A stretch of DNA of 64,000 nucleotides from Tribonema minus. Its lineage: Eukaryota > Sar > Xanthophyceae > Tribonematales > Tribonemataceae. Below are positions 1 through 64,000 of this stretch, piece after piece. Position numbers and translations under genes: made by a program. The notes under the pieces are model-generated. The model was not told the origin of the DNA. It saw only the letters and a program-made list of their open reading frames with translations, and did not search any database. Positions within the stretch are counted from its first letter, which is position 1; the number at the start of each line of letters is the position of its first letter. The stretch spans positions 62,001 to 126,000 of the forward strand of contig JAFCMP010000100.1 in the NCBI GenBank assembly GCA_017506865.1, in the 5' to 3' direction.

Positions 1-3000
1 TCAAAGCCCTCAAAGACGATGCCCGTATAGTACGCGAGGCCCCGCACCACACTGCAAGGCAACAGAAAAGCACAGGATAATGTGGTGTGGGTGCTGCTTC
101 TGTCATGCTGCTCTAAGACGGACAGCGGATAGTGCGCAGCAGCATCAGCGCACCGGATCTGTCAAAGCCCTCAAATACGATGCCCGCATAGTATGCGAGC
201 CCCCGCACCACGCTGCAACGCAAAAAACAACCTAAGGATACTGGTTGGGTTCTGTGATGCTTTCAATATGGGTGGGCTTGAAGTTTGTGTTTGAAGCTGA
301 GCATTAATGCAACTGCTGCCCTGCAAACCAAACCCCAACCCTTGCTGCCTTGCCTGTGCTTTGCTTTTATCACTCTCAGATCTGTGAGCTCGCGTGGGTG
401 CTGCTGGTTAGCGGGCTGTAAAAGTGAAGTTTTGTGTTGATGTATGTACAGTAGTTGAGCTTTGATCACAAAGCTTCAACAGCTGTACTTCAACAACTGC
501 TTGCTGTGCTATAACAGTGTCAGCACTGGTGTCTGCTGATCACAGTTATGCTGTGGGTATTTTTTTCAACGCCCAACAACTGTCAGGAGCTGTCGCAATT
601 GCAGAGAGGCGTGTAGATGGTGGGATGTACCCATACCCCACATGTGCAGATGCAGGTTAAGGTCAGGTGCATCGTACCAGAGAAATGCATGAAATATGCT
701 AGGAATCGCGCCTGCTCTCAAGAGGTAGAAGGAATGCATGCATACATCAGGTAGGTATGCATCGTAGTATGGGGTAGGTGTGTTTCAGATGCCAGCCAGT
801 CAGTTCGCATACCCATACGCCTCTGCGAGATGACAATTGCAACATCGTGTAGCAGTGAGTAGGTTGTACGGATACGGTTTGCAATAGGTGCGTATCGCAC
901 CTTCATCAAATGCCGAGCAGGTAGGTAGGTATGCAATTTGCGTTGAATACATACCCATACGCCCCCGCGAGGTCACAATCGCTGCCACTCCTTCACGGCC
1001 GCCAATTACGCCTGTACCACTGCGTGTATGCATGTTTTGTATTGTACACAGTGTGTAGTACAGTAGTCGCATGTAAAATTTGTACATATCGTACCTTGCA
1101 TCGAACACCAGCCAGTCAGCATACCCATACGCCTCCGCCAGCTCAAACAGCCGCCGCAGCTCCCTCACGGCTGCAGAATCCGCCCCCACCGCCGCCTCCA
1201 GCGCGTCTATGCTCTTGCTCTCCATAACCGCCAGCAGTTTCGTGACGGTTTCGTCCGTCAGGCCGAGCGCTGCCATGTCGCTTCGTAGCGCATCCAGTGG
1301 CACCTGCGCACACCAAGAGCACTCAGGCCATAACCACATCACATGACCCAAGACGTGTACGCTCGATGATGTAGCTGTCTGTTTCTTGGCCTTGGTGGAA
1401 TGGCGCCACGCAACGCATTCCCAGAAGCACCTCTACAGCAGTTCCATGACAGTTTCATCGGTGAGGCCGAGCGCTGCCATGTCGTTGCGCAGCGGCACCT
1501 GCAGTCAACGGTTTCGCGAGAGTTTCACTAATCAGCCACAACAGTTTCGTGACAGTTTTGTCTGTCAGGCCGAGCACTGCCATGTAGTTCGAAGAGCATC
1601 CAGCGGTACCTGCTCGCACACAAGTAGGTTCACGTCGCAATCACTTGACATGACCGGGGACGTGCATGTTGGGTCTTTTTTCACTGCCCTTGGCGAACTG
1701 GGACTACGCAACACACCCCCAGAAGCACTTCTACAGCAGTTTCGTGGCAGTTTCGTCCGCGCTGCCGTTTCGCAGAGCACTCAGGCCATAAGCACATGAC
1801 ATGACTGGGGCAGCAAGTCCAGCGGCACCTGCAGCACGGCTCATACAACAAGCGCCCCAGATTAGGTGAAGCCACTTTTTGAAGAGCTGTGCCGCGCAAT
1901 TGGGAGCAAACACGGTCAGCAGTTTCGTGACAGTTTCACCGCTTAGGGGCGGGGGGGGCGGGAGCGATGCTGAGCACTGCTGTGATGTTTTTGTTGCAGC
2001 GTGTTCATCTCGGGTAGATTGAAGTTGAAGTGTGTTTTCCTGAAGCTCAAGTGTGACTCACCTTTTCTAGCTTGTCCACCAGCACGCACGTTGCGGCGTG
2101 CTTCGCCTCAGGGACCCCCAGAGACGTCATGATCTCCCCCAGCGCTGCGCGCGAGTTGACCTTCATTCCCACGTCTGCACTTGTGATGCCGATGTTAGTG
2201 AAGAAGCTCACAACCGCTGCTAGCAGCTCTGCCTCCGCTTCGACACCCTGTTTGCGCGAGATACCATGGCAGTGGCAGAACATCAGGTAGGGGTACAGTG
2301 GCGACTGCGCTCAAGTGGGTCTTAGTGGTGCAGCTTGCACTTCAACTGATGACAACACACAACTTCAACATAGGCCCTACAATCAGCACTTGTAATGCCG
2401 ACGTTAGATAAGAAGCTCGCGACTACCGCCAGCAGTTCGGCCTCCGCTTCAACGCCCTGTATGCACGCAATACCATAGCGGTGGCAGATACAGTATCAGG
2501 TGAAGGTCAGGGTTAATATTTGTGTCAATTGCGCTCAGGTAGGGCCTTTGAGGTGCAGCTCGACCTGCTGGGGAAGTCAATTTGAAGTTCATCCCAACGT
2601 CAACGCTTGTGATGCCAGTATTGAGGATGAAATTTGCGCGCTGAAAACTAGGGTTAGGGTTGGGGTTCAGGGCTAGGGTTAGCATGTGCCAACGCGCCTA
2701 CATGCACAGGTTCCCACCACTGTGGAGAGACAGTTCTGACTCAGGGATAGAAACAGAGCTGCAGTGGTGTTGTACCGTTCAGTGGTGGACAAACAGGAGT
2801 GTAGTGCGATTTGGTTTAGGGTTAGGGTTAGGGTGAGGTTTAGGGTTAGGGTTTGGCAGCCACGCAACATCTTGGTAACCGCTGCCACGCCTACAACAGT
2901 TGGAGCACAGCCCTGGTGCCTAATCTTCACCCTAGTCAGAACCCTGACTCTAACCCTAACCCCACCCTCAAGTGTGGTGGTTTCCGTGTCTATGACAACA

Positions 3001-6000
3001 GGCCTTGGTGACAGCAGTAACCCTGACCCTAATTGCAACCCTCATGTAAGCTAACCCTATTTTGAGCCCTCGACGCTGACCCTGACACCGCAATCCACGC
3101 CTGTACAGGTGTGTGTGTGCCACCGGTTGGCAGAATCTTGCGCAGCCTTGGGCCCACTCTAACCCTTACAAACCCTAACTCTAACCCTACGCCCTGAACC
3201 CTGTTGCCGCAGTTCATACGGTGGGTATCATACCTGTACCCCCCAGATGTCCATGTTCCACTGGTAGTGCTCGCGTCTGCAGCGTACTGTAGGGCCTCCC
3301 TCAACCCTGACTAATCATAACCGTTACTCGAACCCTACTTGTAACCCTAACCCTGCACTGTGTGACCCCTGCCACCACAGTTCGCACCTGTACCCCCCAG
3401 ATGTCCATGTTCCACTGGTAGTGCTCGCGTCTGCGGCCGCGCGTCATGCGCTCGTAGCGCCAGCACTGCGGCAGCGAGAACCACTTCACAGGCAGCGTAA
3501 CGCCGTTGCGCCGCGCCATTATCATTCGCGCCAGCGATGGCGTCATCTCTGCATGAACAAAGGTGCGCAGGAGTAGTGCGTTTGTGAGGGGGGAAAAGTG
3601 CGCTTTGAAGTGTACTCTAATGCTAGATACATTGCGCTACGCTAGATGAATGCCAGCACTGCGGCAGCGAGAACCACTTCACAGGCAGCGTGGCAGTGTT
3701 GCGGACACCCGCGCCAGCGATGGCATCATCTCTGAACGAGAGCAGCGATGAGCGCGAGTGCGTATGAATGCATATGATGCGTGTTCCCCAGTGTAGACAG
3801 GTGTATGTATGTATGCACTCGTATGCTTCATTGATATGTATACTTATCACCCAATCAGGTCTTGTGTTGGCTTGCGTGGCAGGTGTGTGCACCTGCACAC
3901 CTACATACCTACATGCCCCCCCCCCCCCCCCCCCCATGTCCCCAAAGTCACCCAGCTGCACACACGACTTGCCAGTGCACGCGAACTTGAGCACAGATCT
4001 GGCAGTATGCCCTACCAGTGCGAAGCGCATATTACTATGGTGTGAAGTTGTATGTACAGCATGCTATGCGAGTTGTGCTATGAGGCATACCCAATCACAG
4101 CGCCACGTGCATCTCCCCCCTGCCGTGAAAGTTGTACATTGCAGTAGGTCACACAAGCCATATGTGTAGACTAGAAGGTACAAGTGTGCAAAAAAAATAT
4201 TTGACATGACAAGTGTGTGCATACATACATACCCGGTCGCAGCGCCACGCGCCTCTCTCCCTTGTCCTCAAAGTTGTACAGCTGCTGCGTCACCTCCTCA
4301 CCGCTCTTGCGCACATACAGTGCCTCACTCTCCAGCACCGGCGCATCATATTCCTCAAATCCGTACTGTTCCGCAACCTGCAGAACCGACCACAGCAGGC
4401 GCAAGTGGGAGGAGGGCTGTGGGTACTGCATGTGCGTATGAAGGAGAATTTGTACAAGTGCACCGGCGTATGAGCACTGGCGCATCGTATTCCTTAAATC
4501 CGTACTGATCCGCAACCTGCAGAACCGACAGTAGCAGGCAGGAGAACGTGTGGGTATGTAGGTATGATGGATAATATCACGTACAGCCTCGCGCTCTCCA
4601 GCAGAGGTGTAGGCATGCAGGTATAATAGATAACAACGCGTACAGCGCCTCTAACCCTAACCCTAACCCAGCACCGGCGCATCAAATTCCTCGAATGCGT
4701 ACTGATCTGCAACCTGCACAAGCGAGTAGATGTATCATACTTTCAAGTTGAAGTTGAGGATGGAAGGCACGCGGCTATGAGCACTGGCGCATCATCTTCT
4801 TCCTCCAGGCACACACATGTATTTACCACTTCAAGTTGCAAATTGAAGTACAATACCATTACCGCCAACATACGTACGCTGCGCCAGTGCTGGAAGAACC
4901 ACGTCCTGAGCCGCATGTCTTCCGGGTGGTACATGTTCATCTACCACTTGAAGTAACAACATGAAGTACAACCTGATGGATATGGATGCTGCTAACCTAC
5001 AACATAAACTACATGCGTACCTTGCGCCAGTGGCAAAAGAGCCACGTCCTGAGCGGCGTGTCCTTCCAGGTACATGCATTCTAAGTTGCAACTTGAAGTA
5101 ACCACCGCATTTATGAATGCATACATACATACCTTGCGCCAGTGCCCAAAGAGCCACGTCCTGAGTCGCATGTCCTCTGGGTACATGTCGCGCGTGCCTT
5201 TCACGGGGTTCTGTACAGCCGAAGCAGCCAACAGGGTCTAGGGTTAGGGCCAACGGGTACCATGCACATGGGGTGCGTATTCATCCATCGGTGCTGGTTG
5301 CCGGCCCGGAGTCGCAGCAGCGCAACAAGAATTAGGGTTAGGGTCAAACAGTACAACGCAATGGGTGTGTGTCATTCAGCGGTTCTATTCAGCGGTTCTA
5401 ATCGACGGCACGGAGTCGCAGCAAGAAAGATTGCGGTTAGGGTTAACGGGTGTCATGGTTAGAGGGCATTTATGTATTGTGTGTTGTGCCACGCACACAC
5501 GCAAGCAGACGCCTGCAGTGCACTGTGTCTCTGACGAACCCTAATCCTAGCCCTAGCCCTACTCCTACTCCAAAACCTTGCCCTAACCCTAGTCCTAACC
5601 CCAGCCCTAAAACCAGCCCTACTGGTGCGCCCTTCAACGTTTATTCGGGTAGGGTTAGGGTTAGGGCAAGCGTCATGCAGATGCACCACGGACTTCGCGC
5701 AGAGCAAGGTTGAAGTTGGATTTGTACCCACAAACAGCGTTGGTTTCATGTCCACGGTTGAAAGGAGCAGGTGCGGGAGTGTATGACTATCACGCCGGTG
5801 AAGTCATACTTCAAATTTGCAGTACGTCTGCGATCCCAGCAACTTCTGGTTGATCGCAACGATATCAATGCGGCCCATGCACAAGGGCTCCGTGTCGTGA
5901 TGCAGTGGACAAAACTCTCAAAGCGCCTATTGCTGTTTGGAACTATGTGAGGACCACAAAATGAAATTGCCGCCTGTACCTTAGAGGGCTTCAGTGGATG

Positions 6001-7974
6001 ATGTGTTTGTGAGGGAACTTCATCTGCGGGATCTGGACTCAGAGTTGAACTCGGTTCTAAAACTTTCAAGTACGTGTGGAAACACCTGTGAGTATATGCA
6101 AACCTACAGCTGCTCGCACCGAACCACAGTGTTGACATGTGCGGCGGCACAGCTGTGTGCTGCTCTGAGTTGCATGAAGATTACACCATAATGGCTGTAT
6201 GTGTGAGTACGCAAGTCAGAGCTAGAGAGCCCACCATCATCACATGTATGTCAATAAAAGGGGAGCACTGCTGCACAGAATGCGCATACCATGGCGCTGC
6301 TGCCACTGCGGAAGCTGCTGCTACAGCAACAGAGCTGCAAGCATCGAGAATGACAGAGGCCATAACAGAAGTTCAACTCAGCAGAAGCTGCTGCAGCTGC
6401 TGCTGCTGCGCACCTGTAAGCATTAATACATGGAAACGGATCAGAAGAGCGTAGAGTTCTAGGTGACAAGGATCAATACATGAAAAAAAGGCAATTGAAA
6501 ACTTCAAATTGGTACATCAACTCGCCAGGTCCAGCGCTTCCGTGACAGCGTCCGCCTTCGCACGCTCTTCCGCATCCTGCAAACCATGATACGGGCACAG
6601 CTACACAGCCGCTAGGGGCACAGCTGTAAGCCTCAAACCATGACAGGACTTCAACTTGGTACTTCAACTCACCAGGTCCAGCGCTTCCGCGACAGCATCC
6701 GTCTTCGCACGCTTTTCCGCGTCCTGCAGCACAGCTGCGCTAGCCCGCTTCCCCCCGCCCCCACCGGGTGACAAGGATCAATGCATGATGAATTGCAATT
6801 GAAAACTTCAACTCACCAGGTCCAGTGCTTCTGCGACAGCGTCCATCTTCGCCCGCTTCTCCGCATCCTGCAGCACAGCTGCGCTAGCCCGCTTCCCCCC
6901 TCCCCCGCTGGTGGCGTTCGGCTCCGACTGCGTCGAAGAGAGCAACCGCGTGGCGCGTGTCGGTGCGCAGCAGCGGCTGCTGTGTTGCGCCGCCAGCCAT
7001 GATGCGCGCGGTAAGGCAAATGCTGCCACTCTGTAAGAGCCCCTACTGCCTGAGAGCACAGAAGGCAAGGTGATGGGAGCATGCCTGGATCAGCAGACGA
7101 TGGTTTGATGTATTGGCGTTGCGGAATTGTCACAGGAAAATAAAGAAATACAGGAGCATCAGCCAGTGAAAAATATATGGCAGTGGCGGACAGCACGCGC
7201 ATTGCACAAAGAAAATAAGTTGCACCCGGATATCGAACAGCTGCAGCATGAGAATAAGAGCAGGAAGTCAGCAGAGCAGCGCACTAGCAGCGGCAGCAGC
7301 AGCTCAGCTGTAAGATGTGTAGTAAAGAAGGCATCAATCACACGCGCAGTGCCAAGCGCAATGACGTAGTCGCAACAGCTACTGAAAGCAGTCATTTGAC
7401 ACACCGTCGACACCAGCACTACAGATCTGCCCCAGGAAAACAGCCAAGAAACAGGCATGCACTACTCAGTTGAACGGCAGAGGCATCAAAACTCAAATTT
7501 ATGGCATTTCTGATATGATGTGAACACCAACGACCACCTGATCAGCTCAAGAAGCAGTAGGGCAAAAGGCCTTGGTGCGAAGCAGAGGAAGGTGGCATGC
7601 AAGCGACGCGGTGCTGCAAATGCCGTGCTGCAGCAACAGCGACTCTCAACAAACATCACGTACTCTTCAATGCAAAAGCTTGATGCAGCATGTCGTATAA
7701 GGCTTGAAGAAGGGCCATTGTGCAAGCGCTGCACGCTCGCGAACTGTGCCATGGAGTTGAGTTGCACCAGACAGCCAGTACATCGGCTTCAGGCTGCAGC
7801 AGCACCAGTGAGTAAATTTAACACGCACGTGACCGGCACGCCTGAAAACACGACACCTTGTACATGCCTCTGGCAGGCAGCAAATATGCAATCAGCGGTG
7901 ACAACAACCTCAGGTCTGACGTAAGAACATGCAGCTCACCCACCCAGGCACGAGGCTGCCAGAGCGAGCAGCAT
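1..7974 (-). CDS. HARS: Plastid-type histidyl-tRNA synthetase, 8 exons seen, 3' part beyond the left edge
   Basis: Class II synthetase that charges tRNA-His. Exons in coding order: 7974-7940, 7030-6817, 5210-5133, 4377-4233, 3548-3388, 2247-2062, 1303-1095 and 51-1 (cut by the window edge). All have GT-AG borders and matching codon phase. Seen in the translation: [12 protein letters not shown] at the start of the core, [12 protein letters not shown] (motif 1 region), [24 protein letters not shown] (motif 2 with its arginines), [16 protein letters not shown], and [13 protein letters not shown] (HisA motif). The first exon gives [12 protein letters not shown]; spliced to VAAFALPR it makes a signal peptide with F after the alanines, followed by a basic, Ser/Thr/Arg-rich stretch, so plastid import is inferred. 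The family extends roughly 200 residues further (anticodon-binding domain), which should lie to the left. Nearly every junction has decayed copies of itself in the adjoining intron. Confidence 0.9.
163..226 (-). repeat. Copy of HisRS exon 8 acceptor and exon start
   Basis: About 162 bp upstream of the true acceptor lies a near copy of the first roughly 50 coding bases ([13 protein letters not shown] region) and its 3' splice site. It differs at several positions and is not needed for the reading frame. Confidence 0.8.
615..1035 (-). repeat. Copies of HisRS exon 7 donor end
   Basis: Two clear fragments (about 784-835 and 940-1020) and one faint one (about 620-650) repeat the end of exon 7, the part coding [14 protein letters not shown], plus intron sequence after the donor. 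They lie downstream of the true donor at 1095 in coding direction. Confidence 0.7.
1440..1985 (-). repeat. Array of HisRS exon 7 acceptor copies
   Basis: At least four decayed copies of the acceptor and exon start (coding [23 protein letters not shown]) lie at about 1440-1510, 1530-1615, 1730-1830 and 1910-1945. Each keeps the phrase coding [10 protein letters not shown] in recognisable form, with other parts scrambled. A related array lies at 38665-38900 in another gene. Confidence 0.8.
2385..2645 (-). repeat. Copies of HisRS exon 6 acceptor and exon start
   Basis: Two fragments (about 2385-2480 and 2575-2640) resemble the start of exon 6 (coding [24 protein letters not shown]). They are separated from the exon and from each other by intron sequence; the following intron sequence holds TTAGGG-type repeats. 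Confidence 0.75.
2640..3360. repeat. Interstitial telomere-type repeats in HisRS intron, with a copy of exon 5 donor end
   Basis: Short runs of TTAGGG on the plus strand (2645-2690, 2815-2860) and of CCCTAA (2940-2965, 3020-3060, 3170-3200, 3310-3355) fill this intron. A donor-side copy of exon 5 (coding [12 protein letters not shown], with donor) lies at 3205-3300, about 170 bp downstream of the true donor. Confidence 0.75.
3648..4145 (-). repeat. Copies of HisRS exon 5 acceptor end and exon 4 donor end; poly-C tract
   Basis: 3648-3740 repeats the start of exon 5 (coding [14 protein letters not shown]) next to its acceptor. 4082-4145 repeats the end of exon 4 (coding [17 protein letters not shown]). 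Between them is a homopolymer run of about 20 C at 3917-3936 and GTAT-type microsatellite sequence. Confidence 0.7.
4470..5085 (-). repeat. Copies of HisRS exon 4 acceptor end and exon 3 donor end
   Basis: 4470-4530, 4660-4725 and 4775-4805 resemble the start of exon 4 ([16 protein letters not shown]) with its acceptor. 4880-4940 and 5018-5075 resemble the end of exon 3 ([16 protein letters not shown]) with its donor. The intron between exons 3 and 4 therefore holds decayed copies of both of its ends. Confidence 0.8.
5240..5700. repeat. Interstitial telomere-type repeats
   Basis: Runs of TTAGGG at 5235-5245, 5332-5345, 5430-5442 and 5647-5668, and of CCCTAA and variants at 5535-5615, within the HisRS intron between exons 2 and 3. 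Orientation changes within the intron. No coding exon was recognised in 5211-6816. Confidence 0.8.
6515..6745 (-). repeat. Copies of HisRS exon 2 donor end
   Basis: Two copies (about 6520-6585 and 6660-6745) of the end of exon 2 (coding [16 protein letters not shown]) with the donor and the following GTGAGTTGAAG. Both are close to the true donor at 6817. The nearer copy also reaches into the poly-glycine part of the exon. Confidence 0.85.
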
Positions 7975-8924: not shown

Positions 8925-9815
8925 CTTTCTTTGGAGTCCTTTTGTGGAGGAGCTCTTGAGGGAGTCCCAGGAGTCTGTGCTACCGCCCAGCGGCAACATC
9001 CCCTCGATAAGTCACGGTATTTCAAAGGCTGTGCTCAGGACCTACGAGAACGAGGCAGGGCAGCTGCCCCCATCCTGAGGCCACTGGCAGGACGAGCGGC
9101 TGAGATGCAAGCCCGTCGCCTGCTCTCTAGAGAAAGTGCTCCGCCGCCATACATGGCACGCGGAACATTCAGAACGCCATGCAGACCATCAGCGCACGTT
9201 GTGATTGCAAGGTGCGCCTCCTGGCGTCCCTGCTCTCCAACTACATCTGCGACTGGGCGCACAGCCAGGTCGCGCTGCGGCCCTTCCCTCAGAGGCCACT
9301 GAGAACTTCAAGTTGAACTTCTTTCTTGTTCTTTTAAAAGCGTGTCAAGAAGAAATCATTGTCGGCATGCCTGACATGCCCAAAGCACTCCAGGGGCACG
9401 CAAGACAAAAGTTCAACTTGAAGTTCTCACTGGTCTCGGCCGCGGGAAGGACCTGCGCCAGGGCCATGTGCCAGTCGCTGATGTAATTGGCCAGCAGGGA
9501 CGACTGGTGGTGCAGCTTGCCCCCACGCATGCGCTGATCCTCTGCATGGTGTTCTGTACGTTCCGCGTGCTATGGCGGTGAAGCGCTTTCTCCAGAGAGC
9601 GGGGGATGGTCATGTGCCTCAGCCGCACAATGTGTTCTTGGCCTGGGGGCAGCCGCCCTGCCTCATTCTCGTACGTCCTGAGCGCGGTCTGTGAAGTGCC
9701 GCTGTTTGCTGTTGGGCGGAAGTTCTCGCTGGGTGGCAACACAAATGCCTGGAGCTCCCACCAGAGTACCAGAAAAGAGTTCATCGGTATGTCTTGCCGC
9801 ACTGCTGGCTGCATT
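8925..9815. repeat. Imperfect inverted repeat, arms of about 390 bp
   Basis: The plus strand from about 8925 to 9320 matches the minus strand from about 9815 to 9415, at roughly 70-75% by eye, around a spacer of about 90 bp whose edges carry AACTTCAAGTTGAAC in opposite directions. Both arms can code LRTYENEAG followed by LPP, and the minus arm is open for about 130 codons without an intron. The similarity of the peptides suggests the repeat unit was once coding. I do not recognise the protein. A palindromic duplication of a gene fragment is the simplest reading. Confidence 0.7.
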
Positions 9816-11480: not shown

Positions 11481-14400
11481 GAGTCGCACTTGGTGTCGGC
11501 GGCGACGGCCTTGTTGAAGAGTCTGTTGAGCCATGTCGCCAGCATCTGATTCCGCTTCTCGTTGAGCTTCCAGTAGGCGCGCACCGCCGCTACCATCTCA
11601 GCATCAAGTCCCCTGCGGGCGAGGACAAAACAACAACTTTGTGTCAACACATACCGGTATCAATGAGCCAGGATGGAAGAGGACACGAGACGAGAAGGCC
11701 TGCAAATATCACAACTAGCTCATTTTTGAGCCGCTGCATTGGCGACCGAGGCGCGCACTGCCGCCACCATCTCAGTGTCAAGTCCCATGCACATGAGGAG
11801 TAAAACCAACACTGTGTGAATGGGCCAGAATGGCACAGGGCAAGCCTGCTGATCCACCAGCAGGTCACAATTGCCTTTTAAGACGCTGTTTCATTCGTAG
11901 ATTTTGTGACGGCAGTAATGAACCATGTACACATGTGAAGCATGTGTATGTCAGGCATGACGGCCGTCTCAGCCACTACCTTACCGTAGCCTCTCACGGC
12001 ACCTGACCCCCTGCCCCCCCCCCAAAAAAATAGACATAGAGTAGGGTTCCTTAGTGCCAGGTTTATACTCCGTTTGCTCACCTCTTCTCAAGGAAGGCTT
12101 GACTTTCCCGCAGCACTGCTCCGCTCTCCCCTAACCCTAACCCAACTCCAAGCCTATAGGCTGTCGAAAACATTGAGTGTCCAGCGTAGGTGGCGTTTTT
12201 GTAAGGGACGAGGCCAAGTTTTTTTAAATCTTTTCGCTCACCTCTTCTCCAGGAAGGCTTCACTTTCCTGCTGGGGTAAGGCCAGCTCTTCCTAACCCTA
12301 ATCCTAAATCTTACCGCAAGCGTATGGATGCCTATTGTCAGCATCGAGTGTCCAGGTCAGCTGGCGTTTGGGTGAGGGGGGGCAGTCTTTTCCCCCTTTG
12401 CTCACCTCTTCTCGAGGAAGGCTTTACTTCTCGCAGCACCGCTCCACTTAGGGTAAGGAGGGGGCAGTGTTTCCCCCCCTTTGTGAATGAACCAATATGG
12501 CGCAGGGCGTGAGGCTTAGGGTTAGGGTAAGAGTTAACCCTAGTTAGGGTTAGGGTTAGGGTTAACCCTAACCCTAACTCTAACTCTATTCCTAACCCTA
12601 GCCCAGCAAGCTTATGGACGTCACAGCCATCAGCCCCACACATGCACAACACCTGACTCCCCCACCCCCCTCCCCCCCCAAAGTAGATAGGTTAAGCCTT
12701 GGGGCCAGTGTTTCATTCCTTTCGCTCACCTCTTTTCGAGGAAGGCTTGACTTTCCCGCAGCACCGCTCCGCTCTTGCCCGCTTGCCCCTCCATGCCTGA
12801 CGCGAATGTGCTGACCACCTTCACCTGCACATACATACGCCAGTGAGACACGGAGAATATACAGAACAAAGGTGAATCATCATATGTGTGCACACAAAAT
12901 GAGGAAACACGAGCTGCGAGCGAAGGGCATGTAGATAGGATATGTATGGGCTCACGTCAATGAAGGCTATATGGACAGTGAGATCGCGGCAACAGGTCTG
13001 CTACACCAGATACTTGTATACTTGCGAGTATAGGGTGAGCGTGCTAAGTAGCTTGGGGATCATGCACGCCGAATGTGAGGGGGCTGTGAGTATGGAGCTA
13101 TGGTGCAGGGGGGGCAGGTGCTTAGGGTTAGGGTTAGGTAACCCTAACCCTAACCCTAACCCTAACCTAACCCTAAGCACTGACAAAGGCAAGACCACGC
13201 TTTTAAATCTCACCTACACTGGATCGTCAAACCGTATATGCGTGCATGCTCACGTTGTCAACAACCTTTGGAGGTAGTACATGTGCTTATCTTTATGATA
13301 TCGGGGTTCACGTAGATAGCCACAATCTCCAGTTCAGGGCCCATTATGGTGACCTTGGCCTGCATGAAAACTTTAAGATGGAGTCTGCGTGGAGCTGGGT
13401 GGCCCTAAGACGGGTCTGTCTGTGGCGGGAGAGTCTTGTAGCTTTGTTTGGTATCCCTGCTAGTATGTGGGGGACAGTCGCTTGCGGGTGCTTTGTTGGG
13501 GGTGATGTGGGGGGCGGGGTGTGGCGTGCAAGCTTTGCATGCTACATCCAAGAGTAAGAACAAGGCGACACACCTACAACATGGCATTTCCACAGCCACA
13601 AGTGGAATATAATAAAAGTACATGTGCATTTGCGCACGTATACATATACTTGCGTATATCCGGTTTGAAGTATGTGTTCTAAAATTGCAAGGTATTTGCA
13701 CGTCATGTATGCTCACATTGTCGTTGGCGGCGCTGCAGTAGTGATACGCCCACGTCTCACGTGCATACAGCCACTTGACTTATGTCCAGTTTGAAGTTTG
13801 TACTGGCAAAAATAGTAATATACCTCCAAGTACATAGAAGTACATTGATGCCAATCATCTGGGCTTTTTCGCGCCCTGAGCGAGAATTAATAAAAAGTAC
13901 ATTTCATGTATGCTCACATTGTCGTTAGCGGCGCTGCAGTAGTGATACGCCCACGTCTCCTCACTGCTCCCTCGGTTCTTGGCAACCATGACCATCACGT
14001 CCAGATCTGCGCAAATCAACAACGAATTGATAGTGCGCAGCGCGTTCGGACAGCATGTAAGTGGGGATGTCAGGCAGCATGCACGCACATTGAGGCAGGC
14101 GACTGTCACCGCTTATACGCCTTGAATGTAACCCTTGCCCAAGATCCAAACTTCAATGACCATCACGTCCAGATCTGCACGAGTCAACAAGATGCATCCG
14201 ATCAGCATGTATGTTTAGATGTCCAGCAGCATGGACGCTAATGAGTGTTGATGCTTGTAGGAAGATGACCATTGCTAAGATCCAAACTTCAACTCACACA
14301 GTACGTCCAGATCTGCACAAATCAAACATCAAGCGCGCGGCGCATTTGGTCGGCATGTATGTATGAATGCCAAACAGCATGCACGCACATAGAAGTAGGC

Positions 14401-18323: not shown

Positions 18324-19584
18324 CTCGCACGCCCGAGGCCCTGTACAGCTGATAGTGCAAGCTCCAAAGCAGCTCAAATGCAACGTGCAGTTCTGACTTC
18401 CGGCATTCACGGTTGGCAAAAAGTCGTGGTTCATGGTCGTGAATTTTCGCGTTCACGGTCGTGAAGTTTTCGCCCACACCAGCCCTCGTACCAGATCTCC
18501 TGCGCAAGCCTTGTGAGCATATATGTATATGTGAAGCGTGGTGCAGCAAAGATCTCACGCTGCAGCGAGCGCCAGGGAAGCACATTAGTGTGAATGCGTG
18601 GAGTGTGAATTCCTGACCATTACCCCACTACATAACACATTTGATGTACGCAGTTGCTGCCTGCACACTGCATGCAGCTTGGAACATGTGTGTTTCTTAT
18701 CAGCAATGAGCTCATGCTCTCAGGCTCATAGACATTCTGAACAGAGCATACGCAGTGATGAGCCATCAGCCTGACACATGATCATAATAATGTAAAGGAT
18801 TGTGTGTGGTATTTAAATACAAAAGCGCGGGTGAAACAAGCGTTGGCAGCAACGCTGCTACACCAGCGTTCTGCACGGGTGAAACAGCCACTGCTGGCAC
18901 AAGACCGAACATGAAAACCCACGGATGCTATAGCAAAGGAAGCCCCTATCTGGTCATAAGACATGCCAAAAAGTGCCCACCCGATGTTGCGCATGTGCTG
19001 TGGTGACGTCGTCTAGCACTACTGCTGCACAGCACGCACAATGCAGCAGCCTTTGCTCAACAACCACTTGGCGCACAGGAGCGGCCCAGCAATTGTGTGT
19101 CGGACTGCGCCCGTATGTCCAACTCACTGGCTTGCACCACCAGCGGGAGGGTGAGCTTTGCCTCCGTCGGCATCTGCGGGGCGCATGCACCCTGAGCCCT
19201 GTTGTCGCCAACTAGGTCAGCCCTACCAACGCGCACGAACTTCAGTCGTCGTTGCGATGCGAATTCATGAGCCACCCTGGAGCCCGGGCCTTCACGCGGT
19301 CGCAAACCCTAGCCTTAGGACCACCGCGTGCACGTGGGAATGCGCATCAGTGCTGACACAGCGCAACAGGTCGTTCGACCCCCCTCACCCCACCCCCCCT
19401 TTAACCCCAATCCCAGCCCTCATCCTAGGCCTGAGGCAGCAGCCCATGCCCTAGGGTCAGCTGCTCTTGGAGTCGCATGCAGCGTAACCCTAACCCTAAC
19501 CCTCACCGCAGCCCTAACCCCAAGACCTCAGCTCTTGCATGTGCCCTAACCCTAAACCCTGAGGCAGCAGCCCAAGCCCTAGGG
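18324..19584. other. Intergenic region
   Basis: Lies between the start of the unrecognised plastid gene and the stop of PRXQ, both on the minus strand, so it should hold the promoter of the former and the 3' end of the latter. I see CCCTAA-type runs at 19480-19510 and 19540-19560, and two copies of the PRXQ stop-codon end (19432-19475 and 19500-19535). No further gene is supported. Confidence 0.5.
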
Positions 19585-24365: not shown

Positions 24366-24477
24366 CTACTGCAGCAGCTTCAGCGACCCGCGCTCCGCGG
24401 GCACCGCCAGCGTGAATGCCATGCCGTCTGCCGACGCGAACCGCACCCGCGCCATCACACCGCCCCCCTGGGAGGCA

Positions 24478-24514
<37 letters not shown>

Positions 24515-41177: not shown

Positions 41178-49685
<8,508 letters not shown>

Positions 49686-49755
49686 ATTTCAACGACAGTT
49701 GCATCCTCTCTTCATGAATTTCAACGCAAGCGGGCATCCACTTTTCATGAACATT

Positions 49756-53265: not shown

Positions 53266-53273
53266 TGAGTATA

Positions 53274-56670: not shown

Positions 56671-56676
56671 TACCTC

Positions 56677-59600
56677 GTGACCGGAGAACCCCATGGTGAT
56701 GCTCAAACCACGGCGCCAGAGCAGGGGTTCCTGCTGCCTATCGGTACTGGCACCATCGGAAGTCTTGGCCCTGGTGCTCATAGCGATGGTCCCCTGGGAC
56801 TCCCCCTCCTACATACATACCTACTCCCCTCACAAGGGGAGGAGGAGGGGGGGGGGTCAGGGGACAACGGCGGCATCGTCGGGGGCAGCAGCGTCGGCGG
56901 CAGCGGCGGCGGAGGCGGCGGCGGCGGCAGCAGCAGCAGCGGCGGCACCAAGGAAGCGACTGTCGCACGAGACCGCGCGCCGCCGCCGTCGCTGCACCAG
57001 CTGGCCGCCGCCGAAATGTTCGCGGAGCGCGGCGGCGCGGCGCTCGCTGACACGCGTGGTGCCAGCGGCAGATGGGGCGGCAGCGGCGGCGGCGGTGGGG
57101 GGGGCGGCGCTGCTGCGGCGCTGGAGCGCGTGAGCGACGCTGCGCTGAAGGAGGAGTCCCGGCGGCTGTGGGAGCAGCTGAGCGCGCTAGAAGCTCAGCG
57201 CCGGAAGGTGCGCAAAATCTTATGTTTGAAAGTACCTGGGGGCCAGAAGTGCTTCAGTATTGAGGTTGTTGCAGGTGCAATGATGATATAGATATGATTG
57301 CTTTTGCAGCAACACTGTTGTGGTCCGCCCAAGGCTCGAAGCTGGAAGATATGACGTGTTTATTATTGTAGACTTCAAACCCTTCATAGATATGGATGGT
57401 ACGCACGACACTACACCGTGTGAAGTTGTCATTGAAGCACACTGGCGTCCGCACACACGTCAGTGCCTGCTCCCCCCCCCCCCTCCCGCTTCCCCCCCCC
57501 ATACACACATATACACGCACCCACCCTCTGTCTCTCGCTCCGATCGATGCATGCAGACCGTCCTAGTGCAGGCGAGGCACGGCGTGCACGACCTGCACCC
57601 CACCCCACATACTCGCACATACACCCACATACCCTCTCTCTCTTGCGTGCCGCTCTATACAGACCGCCCTATCGCAGGCGAGGCACGGCCCGCTTGTTAC
57701 GACTGTGCAATCTGAAGTTCCTCTTGAAGTATGCTGCCGTCCGCAAACGTCAGTGCCTGCTCCCCCCCCCCACACACACACATACACCCGCACATGCACA
57801 CCCACATAACCACATTCTCTCTCTTTCCGCTACCTACATACCGTCTTATCGCAGGCGAGGCACGAGGTGCGCGCAGCGCGCCGCGCGCAGCACGCGCTCC
57901 GCGCCGCCAGGCTGCGCACAAACACACACACAAACACACAACCGGCACCCCACACCATACACCCGCATATATACACACACCCCTCTCTCGCGCCCCGCTA
58001 CATACAGACCGTCCTGTCGCAGGCGAGGCACGAGGTGCGCGCAGCGCGCCGCGCGCAGCACGCGCTCCGCGCCGCCAGGCTGCGCACCGCGGGCGCGTGC
58101 CTGCTGCCAGCGGCGGCGGCATTCGCGGGCCGCCGCGGCCGTGCCGCGCGCGACGGCAGCAGCAGAAGCAGCAGCGCTCAGCAATCAAATCACGGCGGCG
58201 GCGGCGGCGGCGACGCTCACCGGCGTCACAGCAGCGCTCAGGAAGGAGGCAGCAGGGCTCAGGCGGCAGGCGGCGGCGGCGGCGGCGGCGAGGACGGCGG
58301 CGCTCGTGGTCAAAAGAGCGGTTCTCGGCGGCGGGAGGCGTGCAGCGGCAGCGGCGCTGCGCAGAGCGAAGATGATGGAGATGGCGACGACGGCAGTGCT
58401 CAGCAGGATCGGGGGGCCGAAGAGGGGGGTGAAGAAGGGGGCGGTGCTGGGTGGCACAGCTCAGCAGCAGCGCACAGGCGGGCGGTGCCCTGCACGTACC
58501 GCGTCACGCTGGCGCCGGGGCTCTGCAAAGGTGGGTTTGTGCATGCGTGCGAGACTCTTTTTGTACGAGCCTCTGTTTTGTTTCATGGACGATGGCTTGC
58601 GTGTGCTCTCATGTGGGGCTCAGGAATGAGGAAAGGCCGCCTGCGCCAGCTCAGGGGTAGGTAGGTAAGAGTAGTATTGTGGTCAGGATCAGTGAGGTGG
58701 CAGTGACTGGCGGGCTGGGTGGGTGCACTTGATGCGGTATGCGTGATGTGTTGTATTGTTTGTTGCCTTTTGCACACCCACATCTACAGCAGCAGCAAAT
58801 ACCTTTAACGCACTGCCTGGAAATGTGTGGGTATGCATGCTCCAAGCGGCAGCGTAGCTTCTGCTGCACAGTGCCGACCAGTTCAGGTGCACCACCACTG
58901 TATGTAGTACGCGCCTTGGAGCCTGCCCTTGAAAGCGCATTAACGCAATACGCACTGCGTGAGGCCCGCATCTACTTCAAGTTGCCGTTTCTGACGGGCA
59001 CACCATGTCCTTTTCTGGCGCAAACACCATCTCCTGCGGCCCGCCCGTTGTTCAACCCCCCCCCCCCTCCCACGTGCCGCGTGCGCAGGGCCGGCCGGCG
59101 GCGCCGCCGCGCGCTCAGAACTTCAACTGAGGGCGACGCCCCTGCCCCAACTTCAACCCCCCTTCCTCCCCCCCGCCACCCCCTACGCCATCCTCGCGCG
59201 CAACGCCGCTGGCGCCGACTCCCCGCACATGACCTACATACCCTACTTCGGCGACCGCGCGGAGGAGGATTCCGAGGAACGTTCCCTGGACGTTTCCGCG
59301 TACGACTCCTTTCCCGGCGAGAACGCGAGTTCCCGGGAAGCGGCCGCCGGGCGCTGCGCCGCGGCGGGCGCCGTGTGCGAGGAACTCGCGCTGTGCCTGG
59401 TGGGCAGGTATATATGTAGGGTAGCACAACTACGTATTTGGCCACACAGATACGGCGTATTTGGGGTGCACTTCAAGTATCTGGCAACCGGGAATGCGTC
59501 TTGAGAGCAAACTTCAACATGATAACATGCTACGCGAAGGGCGTACTTGTGGGGCATGTGGCGAGTCTGCTCGATACCGAGCAAACAGCCCGCCGCAAGA

Positions 59601-61987
59601 GAGGCACTTGAACTCAGATATAAACTTCAACACGTGCTTTTTTGCAACCCCCCTACAGGTATGGGAGGGCGGACAGGGTGCTGCGGGGCGTCGCCGCGCA
59701 GCTGGGCTGCACCGTGCCGCAGGTACGCATGTACGCTTGCCTGCCTTGGGTATGTAGGTATCTTTGCTGCAAAGGTAAGACAGACACAGGGTGCTGCGGG
59801 GCGTCGCCGCGCAGCTGGGCTGCACCGTGCCGCAGGTACGCATGTACGTTTGCCTGCCTTGGGTATGCAGGTATGGTTGCTGCAAGGATAGGACAGACAC
59901 GGTGCGAAGCCGTTGTTTGCTGCTGCTGCAGGTGAGGGTTAGGGCTGAGCAGAGGCAAACCCTAACCCTAACCCTAACAACATTTGTGACCTGAGCGCTG
60001 TGCACCTGCGTGGTGTGTGCTGAGCGCTGTCATCAGGTGAAGGCAGCGCTCGGCGATGCGCAGCAGAGGCAGACTCTTACCCTAACCCTAACCCTAACAA
60101 CGTTCTTGACCTGAGCGCTGTGCATCTGCGTGTGTGCTGATCGTTGTCATCAGGCCGAGGCAGCAAACCCTAACCCTAACAACGTTTCTTGACCTGAGCG
60201 CTGTGCACGTGTGTGTATGCTGAGCACTGTCATCAGGCTGATTCAGCAATCCCTCACCTTAACCCTAACAATGTACTCGGCCTGAGCGTTGTGCACTTGT
60301 ATGTGTGCTGAGCGCTGTCATCAGGTGGAGGCAGCGCTCGATGATGCGCAGCAGAGGCAAAAAATCAGGGACGCCAGCATCGATGCTTCTGCCGGCGCCG
60401 CCGCTGCTGCCGCCGCTGCTGCTGCTGCAGATGACAACGACGGCGCTGTCGTCTCAGCTCCTGATGGGGCAGTCAATAATGTGAGCATATGGATTGTAAT
60501 GAACGGTTGATGGAGAGATGGTCTCGATATAACTTCACAAGTCGGCTAACCACACCTTGTCACCTAGAGCTCTACGATCTTTTGATTCGTTTTCATACAA
60601 GTCGAAGTATGTGATGTGCATGTTGAAGTGTGTGATCATACGAATAAGTCGAAGTGTACAATGTTCACGATCAAGTTTGCGCTGAGGCAATTGCTCTGAC
60701 TACGGCAAGGATCACTAACCCTAGGCTTAGAGTTGAGAGGACAAGGTCGGCGCACAGACAGCACGTCTGCAATCGAAAATGCTGCTGTCAGCGTGTGGCC
60801 TAATGTCAAAGCAATGGTACATGCTCTGTACACATGATACCTACCATGTGGTCATCACTACCGAGCACTGCTGTGTGCCAAAGCCTAGCGCTAACCCTAA
60901 CCCTAGCACCTCTTCCCTGCTCGTGTGCGTCAGTACGACACTATGTAGAAGCCACCCTGCGATCTACGACGCACTGCTGCTGAGCACTGCTGCATTTTGA
61001 GTGCCTGCCCCTCACACCGGCAGCGAGCACTGGAACGGGCGCCATCGTCGTTGCTGTGCCAGTATGCGCTCGACAACGCAGTAAAACCGTACCCAGTGCG
61101 TACGCTACCCGCTTACCCTTTGATTTATCTGGATGGCCACCACTGGAAACGGCCGTGTCATGACGTGTGATGTGCTATGATGCAACACCTCATGTCGCAC
61201 CGACCGCCGCCGGCGCTGCTACGCTACCGACCTACTCAAGTTTTTCCCACTGCTTTCCCCCATTGTGTCACTGAACGCCGCTGCTCTATCACGGGTTACA
61301 TGACAGTTTTAAAACTGAGATTCTCTATTGTCAGAAATCTTATTCTTCTTTAAAACGACGATGCTGTTACGTGACGTGCTGCTGACATGCTGCTGCAGCG
61401 GGCCGCGCCGCCGCACCGGCCGCCGCCGGCGCTGCTACGCTACCTACCTACCCTGACTGATCGCCGCTGCTTCATGACGTGTGACGCGCTATGATGCAGC
61501 ACGCCGCGCCGCCGAATCAACCGCCGCCGTCGCTGCTGCGCCGCTACGCGCGCGACAACGCCGCGCTGAGCATCGCCACCGACGCGCGCCTGGCGCTGCG
61601 CGCCACCGCCCCCGACTACCCCGAGCTCGCCCACACGTACCGCCACCTGTTCTGCCGCCGCTGCTACACGTACGCGTGCGCTGAGCACTGGTGGTGCCTG
61701 CCCCCCCGCCACGTGGACCCCCCCGCGCCGCCCCCCTACCCCTTCGCATCTGTCCCCGTTGCGAGTCGCCTCTGTGAGGGTGGCGGCGGCAGCGCGTTCA
61801 TTACGCTGCAGCAGTGGCAGCGCGCAGCAGCAGCTGCCGCAGCGGCAGCGGCGGCGGCTGGCGGCGGCGCTTGTAAGGGGGAGCCTGTGGAAGTGACTGA
61901 TGGGGGCGGCGCTGCTGCTGCGGTGGCGGCGGCGGCAGCGACGGCGGTGGCGGCGGCGTCACCTGCTGAAACGGGTGGCCCTGATGA

Positions 61988-62019
<32 letters not shown>

Positions 62020-63270
62020 CGGTAAGGGCTGATGCCTTGGGCAGTCCTGACAGAGCAGCAGCAGCAGCAGCGGCGGCAGCAGCAGCGGCAGCGGCAGCGC
62101 TCAGCAAACAACAACATCCCGCAGCACTGCTCAACGGCAGTCCTGCGGCAGCAACAGCCAGTGCTGAATCAAAGGCAGCAGCGCCAATCACGGTATCCAC
62201 GTCACCTCACGCAGCAGGCACTGCCGAGATGGCAGCGACAACTCACAGCGGCAGCAACGGCAGCGGCAGCAGCAGCAGCGGCGAAGGCAGCAGCGGCCGC
62301 GCGGCAGTAGCTGCTCAGTCTCCGAGGGCGAGAGCGAAGAGAAAGCAGCAGAGAGCGCACACGCGAGGCGACAGCGCGGCAGCACAAGGTGCTGATGGTG
62401 ATGCTCAGCCGGTTCAGGGTGTAACCGCCGACCAGTCTGGGCAGGACCCCCTGCATGTGCTCCTGATCGCCAAAGGGTGAGTGGCGCGCAGTGCGGTGGC
62501 TGCGCTGCGGTGCATCGTTGCAGCGCCGCGCATTTAAGCCTCGCATCGCGCTGAATTGAGCAACTAAAAAGAGTTTGGTGCCATCATCAAGTGGGCGTTC
62601 ACCAGCACTTGTCACGACTCCACGCCCGGAGTCGTCGCTGACTCCACTCCGACTCCGCTGCGGCCGAAGCGGAGTCAGAGTCATCAGGGCCGTCTCTTGC
62701 TCCTCAGAGTCGCAATCGTGGTCGCACAATTATTGTTGTTGGCTGCGCGGAGCGGAGTCGGAGTTGTCTAAATATTGCGGAGTTGTGACAGCCCCTGACT
62801 GCTATGCCTTCCGCTGTGCTCCCTGCACCACCAGGGTGGCCATATTTGGCCAGGACGCGACGTCGCTCAACGACGTGCTGCGCCCCCTGCTGGGATACGC
62901 CGTGGAGCGCTGCCACCTCCCCCCGTCAGCGCCGGCCGACACGCCCTACCTCAGCAACGCCTTAGCCGCCGCTGCTGCTGAGATCTTCAGCAGCAGCAGC
63001 AGTGGCGGCGGCGGCAGCAGCGGCGGCAGCAGCGGCAGCAGCTACAGCAACTGCAGCGATGCCGCAGATACGGCGGCAGTGCCGGCGGCAGCGCAGGAGG
63101 CAGCGGAATCCGCGGCAGCACTCATCAAACGCGGCAGCAGCATCGGCAGCAGCACTGGCGGCGGGCAGACCAATGGCTCTCTGCTGAGCACTGCTGCGCC
63201 AGTGTCGCCCGAGCCGCGTGGCGGTCTGGTCTCTCCGGGCTCCAGGCCAGCGACGCCGGCAGTTGATGAT
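56677..63270 (+). CDS. EZH: Enhancer-of-zeste type Polycomb methyltransferase, N-terminal half, continues beyond the right edge
   Basis: Catalytic subunit of PRC2, which methylates histone H3 Lys27. Exons: to 57207, 58023-58530, 59089-59407, 59659-59722, 60325-60480, 61500-62476, 62835-63270; phases match throughout. Family marks: a charged helix SRRLWEQLSALEAQRRK continuing ARHEVRAARRAQ; PYAILARN then MTYIPYFGD; VLRGVAAQLGCTVPQVEAALDDAQ; HTYRHLFCRRCYTYACAEHW (LFCRRC is the E(z) signature); GVAIFGQDATSLNDVLRPLLG (SANT-like region, compare VEIFG in plant proteins). CXC and SET domains should lie to the right. Long Ala/Gly/Ser tracts interrupt the conserved blocks. The start is unresolved: the first frame is open from 56368 but has no ATG, so an upstream exon is likely. 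In exon 2 two frames stay open for about 170 codons; the frame ending TYRVTLAPGLCKG is chosen because it joins exon 3 in phase. Confidence 0.75.
57548..57915 (+). repeat. Copies of Polycomb gene exon 2 acceptor end
   Basis: 57551-57590, 57660-57695 and 57840-57910 repeat the acceptor (CTATCGCAG) and exon start coding ARHEVRAARRAQHALRAARLR. Each is preceded by a CTCTCTC and CACACA tract, as is the true acceptor at 58022. The copy at 57840 matches the exon for about 70 bp. Confidence 0.9.
59760..60270 (+). repeat. Copies of Polycomb gene exon 4 donor and exon 5 acceptor ends with telomere-type runs
   Basis: 59775-59875 repeats exon 4 end (VLRGVAAQLGCTVPQ) and donor, followed by a shorter fragment to 59920. 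59930-59960, 60030-60080, 60145-60175 and 60225-60250 repeat the exon 5 acceptor (CTGTCATCAGG) and start (VEAALDDAQQRQ); each unit of about 80-100 bp includes a CCCTAA run and GACCTGAGCGCTGTGCA. Confidence 0.9.
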
Positions 63271-63505
63271 GTGAGTGCTGCCGTTGCTAGGGTTTGCTAG
63301 GGTGTGCTGCTGCTGCTAGGGTTTGCTAGGGTTTGGTGCCAAAAGCAGAGTGGCGGGTGAGTGCTGCCGGAGCTAGGGCTTGCTAGGGTTCGGTTCCAGA
63401 GCAGAGCGGTGTGTGAGTGCTGCTGTTGCTTGTAAGGGTTCGGTCCCAAAGCAGAGTGGCAGGTGAGTGCTGCCATTGCTAGGGTTTGGTCACAACAGAG
63501 TGGCG
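63271..63505 (+). repeat. Tandem donor-site array after Polycomb gene exon 7
   Basis: The donor GTGAGTGCTGCC recurs at about 63356, 63412 and 63462 in a unit of roughly 50-70 bp that also holds GCTAGGGTTTGG and AAAGCAGAGTGGC. Four potential donors thus follow exon 7. From 63506 to 64000 no exon is recognised; the last 80 bp hold a short tandem repeat (core GAACGCATC and GCATGCACAGC). Confidence 0.85.
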
Positions 63506-64000
63506 GGTACCAAGTGCTCATCAGCTCATTCCGGCACTGCACACCCATGCGCATTTTCGTGTAACGCACCCAAACGCACCCAATCGCACCCTCTAGAGCA
63601 TGGGATTTATGATTGTTGATGTAACTGGGATGTATACGTTGTCTATTGATTCAGTGTACACGTACTCTGAAGTATGACACAGTAATCCCCCAAGAATCGT
63701 ACTCAGCGGCACATCGTTTTCCATGCTAGCCTCTCGGCTAGCACTCAGCCGCAGGCTGCGTGCCTGCACCTGATGGACGGCACCGACGTCTGTCGCAGCA
63801 CTGAGGAGCGGCAACGTCGACATGGTGGAGTAGTTGTGCAGTCCGCGAGTTGGCCCAGCGGACTCCCACGATCACTGCTGCAGCTGCTGCCGAGCGCGGC
63901 GATATGCGGATGGTGCGAAAGCTCCATGAAAGGGGCTGCGACCAGAACGCATCCACATGCACAGCTGTGACCGGAACGCATCGGCATGCACAGCATCCAC

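Follow-up and report, generated by a model that had tools for sequence, protein, structure and literature searches.

How introns lengthen, and from where their additional sequence is drawn, is an old open question. In one stretch of the Tribonema minus genome (64,000 bp of contig JAFCMP010000100.1, positions 62,001 to 126,000; referred to here as the window) that source is still readable, as the introns of six genes were found to hold copies of their own exon edges. The whole analysis concerns this single window (G+C approximately 54%) and uses exon models without transcript support. The six intron-containing genes that were rebuilt are those for histidyl-tRNA synthetase (HisRS), a PcrA/UvrD-like helicase (UvrD), the rRNA dimethyladenosine transferase Dim1, a peroxiredoxin (Prx), an EZH2-like protein and a product termed here gene K. 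The exon-edge copy pattern is genuine and out of the ordinary. Its copies are direct repeats, lie close to their source, cluster at edges, fall for the most part on the intron side and usually retain an intact splice dinucleotide. That the introns grow by repeated short tandem duplication straddling exon edges, through error-prone break repair there, is a reading to which we give about an even chance of being correct.

A search conducted from each exon edge of the six genes identified local direct copies reaching the junction on the intron side at 45 of 64 edges, with a total of 105 copies in which the exon part, the intron part or both extend to the junction (95 when the families labelled U7 and U10-stop are left out). 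This agrees with an earlier reading made from the sequence alone (the sequence-only reading), which had counted about a hundred fragments in six genes. Copies were present at 25 of 30 acceptors, 18 of 30 donors and 2 of 4 stops, while a stricter probe, requiring a copy to span the probe centre, was positive at 42 of 63 edges. For the exons of HisRS, UvrD and Dim1, a set regarded as homology-anchored but picked before every exon was aligned, 26 of 32 junctions had copies; for junctions lying well inside protein alignments the figure was 20 of 26 (HisRS 8/11, UvrD 8/8, Dim1 4/7). The earlier statement that nearly every splice junction is surrounded by copies is thus reduced to a majority of about two thirds to four fifths. 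Its further statement that the stop ends of four genes are copied stands for two of them, Prx (edge search) and Dim1 (32-bp units identified with Tandem Repeats Finder, TRF, and missed by the edge search). The gene K stop has a non-coding match only, and the UvrD stop, which is counted among the 2 of 4, sits in CAG-type sequence.

Annotated exons were masked in the edge search, making copies within exons invisible to it, and 110 of 125 exonic matches were located on the intron side. By inspection, the remaining 15 comprised ten common to the opposite edge of an exon of at most 102 bp, three of the low-complexity UvrD stop and two that were neither; the sequence-only reading had put the copies always on the intron side. 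This placement is attributed, from the anatomy of the copies, to selection on the protein, because only duplications of this kind keep it intact; no directional mechanism is needed. Self-BLAST (palindromic self-matches excluded) gave 129 direct local pairs versus one inverted pair, forming 49 clusters; in 38 of these, one curated exon edge and no more falls within a copy. Counted with their spacers, 44 hand-listed clusters, almost all of them tied to a neighbouring exon edge, span 17,095 of the 38,175 intronic bp of the six genes (approximately 45%), supporting the earlier proposal that much intron length was built by serial duplication.

The concentration at edges is the part of the pattern that is both unexplained and new. 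For a placement test, clusters kept their own lengths and offsets and were dropped randomly into genes, with the requirement that exons remain intact. An exon was overlapped by 42 of 45 in-gene clusters against 11.4 expected (P approximately 0.001, the floor of 1000 permutations), and the expectation rose to 18.1 and 25.6 when exon-overlapping pairs were given a twofold or fourfold detection advantage. The 42 of 45 is partly circular, because gene K exons 3-5 were found via repeats and other exons were placed by reading; the clusters of HisRS, Prx, UvrD and Dim1 alone, counted by eye, gave 32 of 35. Centre-spanning copies were found for 26 of 200 intergenic probes and for 33 of 200 deep-intron probes (over 600 bp from any edge), compared with the rate at edges given above, and this comparison of junctions with intergenic sequence, proposed in the sequence-only reading as its own control, came out in its favour. 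The arrays themselves inflate the rates in introns more than 300 bp from an edge (57/200) and inside exons (53/200), and low-complexity exons probably add to them. An edge is contained in each of the 14 in-gene clusters with a best pair of at least 88% identity, two of them being gene K clusters, although for three of the 14 at least (1232-1805, 12000-13175 and 30379-31042) the edge is spanned by a pair other than the best one. That edges are hotter than introns or intergenic DNA is supported.

A uniform high rate of short tandem duplication could also make edges stand out, since the template in exons is conserved and duplications inside exons are weeded out. This alternative survives best, and would explain the intron-side rule without a new process; there are local repeats in intergenic DNA too (9758-10098, 49949-50391), along with the copies found by the 26 outside-gene probes. 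It was examined by forward simulation of a schematic gene (24 exons of 180 bp, 1-kb introns) subject to point mutation, small indels, deletion and the purging of exon-breaking events, with a constrained exon. As the rate climbed until edge coverage equalled the observed 0.68, uniform duplication placed 48-76% of clusters at exons; doubling that rate raised the share to 91%, with clusters merging and edge coverage at 0.72. In the simulations this bias alone produces strong enrichment at edges (48-91% of clusters). However, at matched edge coverage it predicts that 32-34% of pairs have one exonic member, as well as far more pairs per cluster, whereas 84 of 122 in-gene pairs (0.69) were observed to do so, the pairs being non-independent and the gene schematic. 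The presence of an edge in every young in-gene cluster also speaks against it, and so does the placement test, which it fails even with the fourfold detection bias. Events proportional to tolerated sequence, the feature of a uniform background, are not seen in placement, probes or pair count, with the cluster count alone being matchable at a high rate. The simulations show that survivorship can account for much of the edge signal at the level of clusters but not for the excess at the level of pairs, and we regard uniform duplication as rather unlikely.

The anatomy of the copies is fairly regular. The median distance between the functional edge and the first copy is 172 bp (100-215 bp in 32 of 38 cases), and successive copies are spaced at a median of 154 bp, with a 5-95% range of 75-255 bp that is wider than the 80-190 bp first given for the units. 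Exonic reach of the unit is 22-115 bp (23 first copies, exons of at least 150 bp) and is not uniform over the allowed range (Kolmogorov-Smirnov P 6e-5). Head-to-tail duplication, with an offset equal to the homologous length, was identified in three young cases, namely 59673-59898, the 53-bp unit of the Dim1 exon 4 donor (46574-46679) and the Prx stop; beyond these a spacer is present or decay is too great to tell. The nearest copy is closer to the exon sequence than the farthest in 16 families and the reverse holds in four (P 0.012; known frame, at least 70% identity), the order expected if units are added one after another at the edge.

The U7 and U10-stop families were left out of the mismatch and tandem-structure counts. 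Pooled mismatch between functional sequence and copy was 17% for exonic and 23% for intronic sequence (95 copies), and between copies 22% and 26%, respectively. In 70 copies (frame of the exon known, pair identity 70% or more), differences between exon and copy at codon positions 1, 2 and 3 were 105/1390 (7.6%), 119/1407 (8.5%) and 264/1394 (18.9%). Of 21 differences in which the copies are unanimous and the exon deviates, 16 fall at the third position, resembling silent change in the exon itself. The divergence is about that of neutrally evolving copies of an exon under constraint. Among copies whose alignment extends 12 bp to either side of the junction (stops and U7 excluded), 32 of 37 at donors keep GT and 34 of 41 at acceptors keep AG, which makes 66 of 78 aligned decoy sites with an unaltered dinucleotide. 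Per-base retention of the dinucleotides was 0.91 and 0.91, compared with 0.86 and 0.85 for the exonic flank, and decoy splice sites are neither purged nor clearly protected. A third-position excess among the youngest copies (5 differences at positions 1 and 2 versus 13 at position 3, 11 copies) was set aside, as small-count binning and regression yield an apparent intercept under neutrality; the fitted intercept of 0.14 exceeds the values simulated for ratios of up to 2.4 and is not built upon here.

Interstitial telomeric repeats occur in the window above chance, with 107 TTAGGG/CCCTAA hexamers against 14 expected by composition, the window being assumed not to lie near a chromosome end. Of these hexamers, 101 are intronic and none exonic, and five of the six others belong to one island downstream of the Prx stop. 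Telomere-like islands were intronic in 58 of 60 cases, i.e. 58 in 38.2 kb of intron versus two in 15.6 kb outside genes (P 5e-7), and the restriction holds with intronic clusters removed (P 6e-5). They are present in both orientations in the introns of five of the six genes, with none in the Prx introns. Islands and duplications are alike in their confinement to introns, and the two may stem from a common event. A role as UUAGGG splicing silencers was rejected on account of the two orientations (38 TTAGGG versus 63 CCCTAA in transcript sense, P 0.017, the hexamers being non-independent). CCCTAAC may, in addition, resemble a branch point.

Under the break-repair reading, 3'-overhang or staggered breaks near exon edges would be filled in and end-joined, leaving a short tandem duplication of the class that CST/Pol alpha-primase fill-in makes in mammalian cells. 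Filler would sometimes be captured or made by telomerase, which would also fit the near-confinement of the islands to introns. A donor duplication would be tolerated only if the first donor is used, an acceptor duplication only if the last acceptor is used, and a stop duplication in that the first stop wins; the extra copy would then become intron or 3' flank and decay, and unequal exchange between units may later lengthen the arrays. Nucleosome borders, base-composition borders and splicing-linked structures are candidate causes of edge proneness. A bolder version, possible but less probable, is that a mutational process recognising edges (through splicing, chromatin or base-composition borders) duplicates approximately a nucleosome length across donors, acceptors and stop ends, with introns growing outward like a conveyor and telomerase taking part in repair.

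The accessible parts of published accounts describe related events. CST-guided Pol alpha-primase fill-in at DNA breaks produces short tandem duplications, in a class of insertions below 100 bp (PMC8355091), and is alike in its short direct duplications and its telomere-end machinery; exon-edge targeting is not described in the accessible part of that account, whereas the duplications here are edge-focused. Telomeric repeats inserted at double-strand breaks, sometimes with target site duplications, give similar short internal TTAGGG islands (PMC2246262), but that account, as far as accessible, describes neither the intron restriction found here nor a link to exon edges. Intron gain by tandem duplication has been described for potato RdRp, including one duplicated intron-exon junction with its splice signals copied (PMC4974935). 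The short tandem duplication across a junction is alike, but there, according to the accessible text, a new intron is made, while here existing introns lengthen via seemingly unused copies. Intron birth of the Rogers type, by duplication of an exon segment containing AGGT, was rejected, as donor-acceptor flank similarity exceeded the 95th percentile of mismatched pairs in 0 of 28 introns, although very old births would escape this comparison. The view that no named process has this signature therefore survives only for the concentration at most edges: for accretion junction by junction at most exon edges no precedent was found in searches of an open-access library (subscription papers and preprints lay outside the search). 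Edge accretion is a variant of known short tandem duplication in which the edge focus is new; exon edges may, as in the bolder version, form a dedicated hotspot.

Several results weigh against duplication by break repair at edges. No copies were found at the four start codons tested. Near-identical exon parts with an unrelated intron flank occur at the HisRS exon 4 donor, in copy 1 of the UvrD exon 3 donor and in copy 1 of the UvrD exon 6 acceptor, and clear likeness is confined to the exon half in 24 of 95 copies and to the intron half in 13 of 95; these cases call for filler, subsequent rearrangement or gene conversion. The ratio of third-position to first- and second-position differences, 2.36 (family bootstrap confidence interval 1.97-2.79), is at or above the neutral limit of approximately 2, and stops account for 1 of 153 single-copy differences where about five are expected. 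Edge-focused simulations, with interior duplication at 3-10% of the edge rate, gave 51-58% one-exonic pairs, under the observed 0.69, so that no model fits exactly; cluster merging alone lifts the simulated exon-overlap fraction to 0.76 and 0.91 when uniform rates are high, and the cluster statistic taken alone is weaker than it appears. Finally, telomere repeats lay within 10 bp of copy breakpoints in 7 of 73 cases against 4.0 expected at nearby random intron positions (P 0.08; wider limits were weaker; U7, U10-stop, Z7 and copies with less than 20 bp of exonic reach excluded). As this proximity is non-significant, the link of the islands to break repair is indirect, and the earlier remark that the units often include TTAGGG-type sequence agrees with the intronic position of the hexamers.

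Unequal recombination or gene conversion, between diverged alleles or array units, might instead build and rehomogenise arrays after a chance first duplication. The even spacing in arrays such as those of the UvrD exon 8 donor (109-126 bp) and exon 5 donor (approximately 175 bp) would fit, as would exon halves that are sometimes far more alike than intron halves. However, this accounts for array growth and not for the first duplications at edges, and random exchange within arrays would blur the 16 versus 4 order of nearest copies. We hold it to be unlikely.

An introner-like mobile element inserting near edges, with the copies as long target duplications and the spacers as element remains, finds its best case at the gene K exon 3 donor, where a 145-bp insert lies between 56-bp direct repeats of 98% identity. 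A piece of this insert of approximately 63-64 bp recurs in Dim1 intron 1 and at 53269-53388, and belongs to a short dispersed element (13840-13908, minus strand; 41602-41723 and 53269-53388, plus strand; weaker at 27000-27602, minus strand, after the UvrD exon 9 donor). Two of its three clear copies lie directly after a splice donor and one outside annotated genes. The HisRS exon 4 donor is similarly laid out, with a telomere-like spacer. Introners, in the accessible parts of their descriptions, are families common to many introns, with short target duplications (PMC9860276, PMC7789003), and are alike in adding intron sequence across many genes; there a family makes new introns, whereas here each junction is copied from itself, as the sequence-only reading had recognised. 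Among 28 introns (UvrD intron 1 and the first EZH2-like introns left aside) the 64 between-intron matches, which were not each checked, look telomere-type by position, bar that piece and one 42-bp match, and an introner family common to them was rejected. Flanking repeats are tens of bp where measurable, and inverted local pairs are nearly absent, although BLAST would miss short terminal repeats. Several young cases are spacer-free pure tandem duplications, and introner target duplications are given as 3-9 bp in the accessible text (PMC9860276), not 50-90 bp. A mobile origin is considered improbable.

Copies held by selection, as backup or regulatory splice sites or alternative exon ends, would agree with the many intact splice dinucleotides, with a codon-position ratio slightly over the neutral limit and with the few stops. 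On the other hand, dinucleotide retention is near that of the exonic flank, which is what decay relative to an unchanging functional site should give; indels are not biased toward multiples of three (11 of 41), and edge-search matches extend down to 71-75% identity. Such function is thought very improbable. An assembly artefact of collapsed or falsely repeated reads is scarcely credible, as the exon-copy differences depend on codon position and the open-frame exons join into proteins matching solved structures, a result that an assembler would be unlikely to yield.

The clusters are listed in Table 1, and the gene models on which they depend differ in their support. For HisRS (minus strand), the joined protein of exons 2-7 matches solved HisRS end to end, and exon 1 was placed by reading and not by homology, as were UvrD exons 7 and 10, gene K exons 1-2 and the EZH2-like exons. 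The solved-protein alignment of UvrD (minus strand, 24366 to approximately 40961) spans the first exon to exon 6 and again exons 8-9. Residues 46-277 and 316-354 of the 354 of Dim1 (plus strand, 41178-49685) align to solved dimethyladenosine transferases. UvrD exon 2, exon 3 acceptor, exon 6 donor, exon 8 acceptor and exon 9 donor and the Dim1 exon 5 acceptor were aligned only loosely, if at all. Gene K exons 3-5 were located via repeat clusters, four of which pointed to further exons of this gene. Prx is backed by Pfam AhpC-TSA, and the EZH2-like label by a weak Ezh2_MCSS match under the Pfam cut-off. Pfam gave no match for gene K or for five of six other submitted open reading frames, and the sub-threshold Luteo_PO match of the sixth (E 0.022) was disregarded. 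No relatives of Dim1 were found among viral contigs by protein or by a degenerate Dim1 pattern. The N-termini of gene K (18.1-18.4 kb, minus strand) and Prx (22.2-22.5 kb, minus strand) resemble what we take to be the signal plus transit peptides of a complex plastid.

Table 1. Clusters of exon-edge copies in the window, with the functional edge in brackets.
Cluster	Position	Strand	Basis
HisRS exon 7 acceptor (exon start 51), upstream acceptor copy at 162-254, 82%	1..254	-	self-BLAST, exon aligned
HisRS exon 6 donor side (1095), weak exon-end copies short of junction	950..1174	-	self-BLAST, edge search
HisRS exon 6 acceptor (1303), array	1232..1805	-	self-BLAST, edge search, exon aligned
HisRS exon 5 acceptor (2247), copy	2174..2560	-	self-BLAST, edge search, exon aligned
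HisRS exon 4 donor (3388), 52-bp copy, 98%, 102 bp away, telomere-like spacer between	3232..3437	-	exon aligned
HisRS exon 4 acceptor (3548), copy	3459..3734	-	self-BLAST, edge search, exon aligned
HisRS exon 3 donor (4233), copy	4086..4280	-	self-BLAST, edge search, exon aligned
HisRS exon 3 acceptor (4377), array	4332..4725	-	self-BLAST, edge search, exon aligned
HisRS exon 2 donor (5133), two copies	4833..5188	-	self-BLAST, edge search, exon aligned
HisRS exon 1 donor (6817), two copies	6462..6906	-	exon placed by reading, not homology
Gene K exon 5 acceptor (11612), copy	11575..11820	-	exon located via repeat
Gene K exon 4 donor (12730), three copies, two with telomere-like repeats at most 1 bp from exonic breakpoint	12000..12775	-	exon located via repeat
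Gene K exon 3 donor (13918), 56-bp copy, 98%, beyond 145-bp insert	13703..13959	-	exon located via repeat
Gene K exon 3 acceptor (14006), array	13988..14452	-	exon located via repeat
Gene K exon 2 donor (15829), two copies	15366..15886	-	exon placed by reading
Gene K exon 2 acceptor (16052), array	15990..16720	-	exon placed by reading
Prx stop end (19585), downstream copy	19416..19590	-	self-BLAST, edge search
Prx last-exon acceptor (19772), copy	19730..20021	-	self-BLAST, edge search, Pfam
Prx exon 3 acceptor (20276), three copies, approximately 178-bp spacing	20231..20831	-	TRF, edge search, Pfam
UvrD exon 10 acceptor (25809), two copies	25797..26249	-	exon placed by reading
UvrD exon 9 donor (27625), two copies	27234..27661	-	edge search
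UvrD exon 9 acceptor (27987), two copies	27915..28438	-	edge search, exon aligned
UvrD exon 8 donor (29365), six copies, 109-126 bp spacing	28670..29424	-	TRF, edge search, exon aligned
UvrD exon 8 acceptor (29794), copy	29703..30023	-	self-BLAST, edge search; edge outside protein alignment
UvrD exon 7 acceptor (30401), array, partly low complexity	30379..31042	-	exon placed by reading
UvrD exon 6 donor (31946), copies	31591..32035	-	edge search
UvrD exon 6 acceptor (32242), three copies	32095..32778	-	edge search, exon aligned
UvrD exon 5 donor (33777), copy series, approximately 175 bp	32826..33874	-	edge search, exon aligned
UvrD exon 5 acceptor (33992), copies	33898..34367	-	edge search, exon aligned
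UvrD exon 4 donor (35061), two copies	34767..35125	-	edge search, exon aligned
UvrD exon 3 donor (36815), six copies, up to 1.1 kb into intron	35883..36903	-	edge search, exon aligned
UvrD exon 3 acceptor (37020), array	36929..37473	-	edge search
UvrD exon 2 acceptor (38114), copies	38079..38398	-	self-BLAST, edge search; exon loosely aligned
HisRS exon 6 acceptor array, distant copy in UvrD intron 1, approximately 37 kb from source	38665..38898	-	86% over 113 bp; 74% over 202 bp
Dim1 exon 2 acceptor (44172), two copies	43795..44231	+	edge search, exon aligned
Dim1 exon 2 donor (44337), two copies	44283..44702	+	edge search, exon aligned
Dim1 exon 3 acceptor (45426), two copies	45142..45477	+	edge search, exon aligned
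Dim1 exon 4 donor (46589), copies including nested 53-bp tandem duplication	46498..46918	+	TRF, edge search, exon aligned
Dim1 exon 5 acceptor (49454), copies	48993..49478	+	self-BLAST, edge search
Dim1 stop end (49685), three 32-bp units	49655..49751	+	TRF; edge search missed
EZH2-like region, exon acceptor (58008), copies	57421..58087	+	exon placed by reading
EZH2-like exon donor (59722), 113-bp pure tandem duplication, 93%	59673..59905	+	TRF, edge search; exon placed by reading
EZH2-like exon acceptor (60325), array with telomere-like units	59955..60359	+	TRF, edge search; exon placed by reading
EZH2-like exon acceptor (61500), copies	61158..61541	+	exon placed by reading
EZH2-like exon donor (63270), intron-start part repeated, exon part single	63262..63488	+	self-BLAST, edge search

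Other repeats and one RNA gene were also identified. A search of the window with Rfam at gathering thresholds found 5S rRNA only, as a gene or copy (102.8 bits) within UvrD intron 9 on that gene's strand (26560-26678, minus strand). A dispersed 0.8-kb repeat is located at 39220-40011, 50393-51179 and 53496-53630, the first two being 98.6% identical and one copy lying in UvrD intron 1. Direct repeats of 311 bp at 51183-51493 and 52467-52777 (99.7% identical, 1.3 kb apart) resemble those of a recent long terminal repeat element. A long imperfect palindrome extends over 8953-9766 (851 alignment columns at 70%), and a perfect 20-bp tandem duplication (48870-48909) sits deep in Dim1 intron 4, far from exon edges.

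If edge accretion is general in this genome, the copies would serve as dated fossils of each duplication, as a gauge of how much splice-site copying the spliceosome tolerates and as a test of exon borders as fragile sites. If the outermost sites are those used, the spliceosome here would prefer the outermost site pair.

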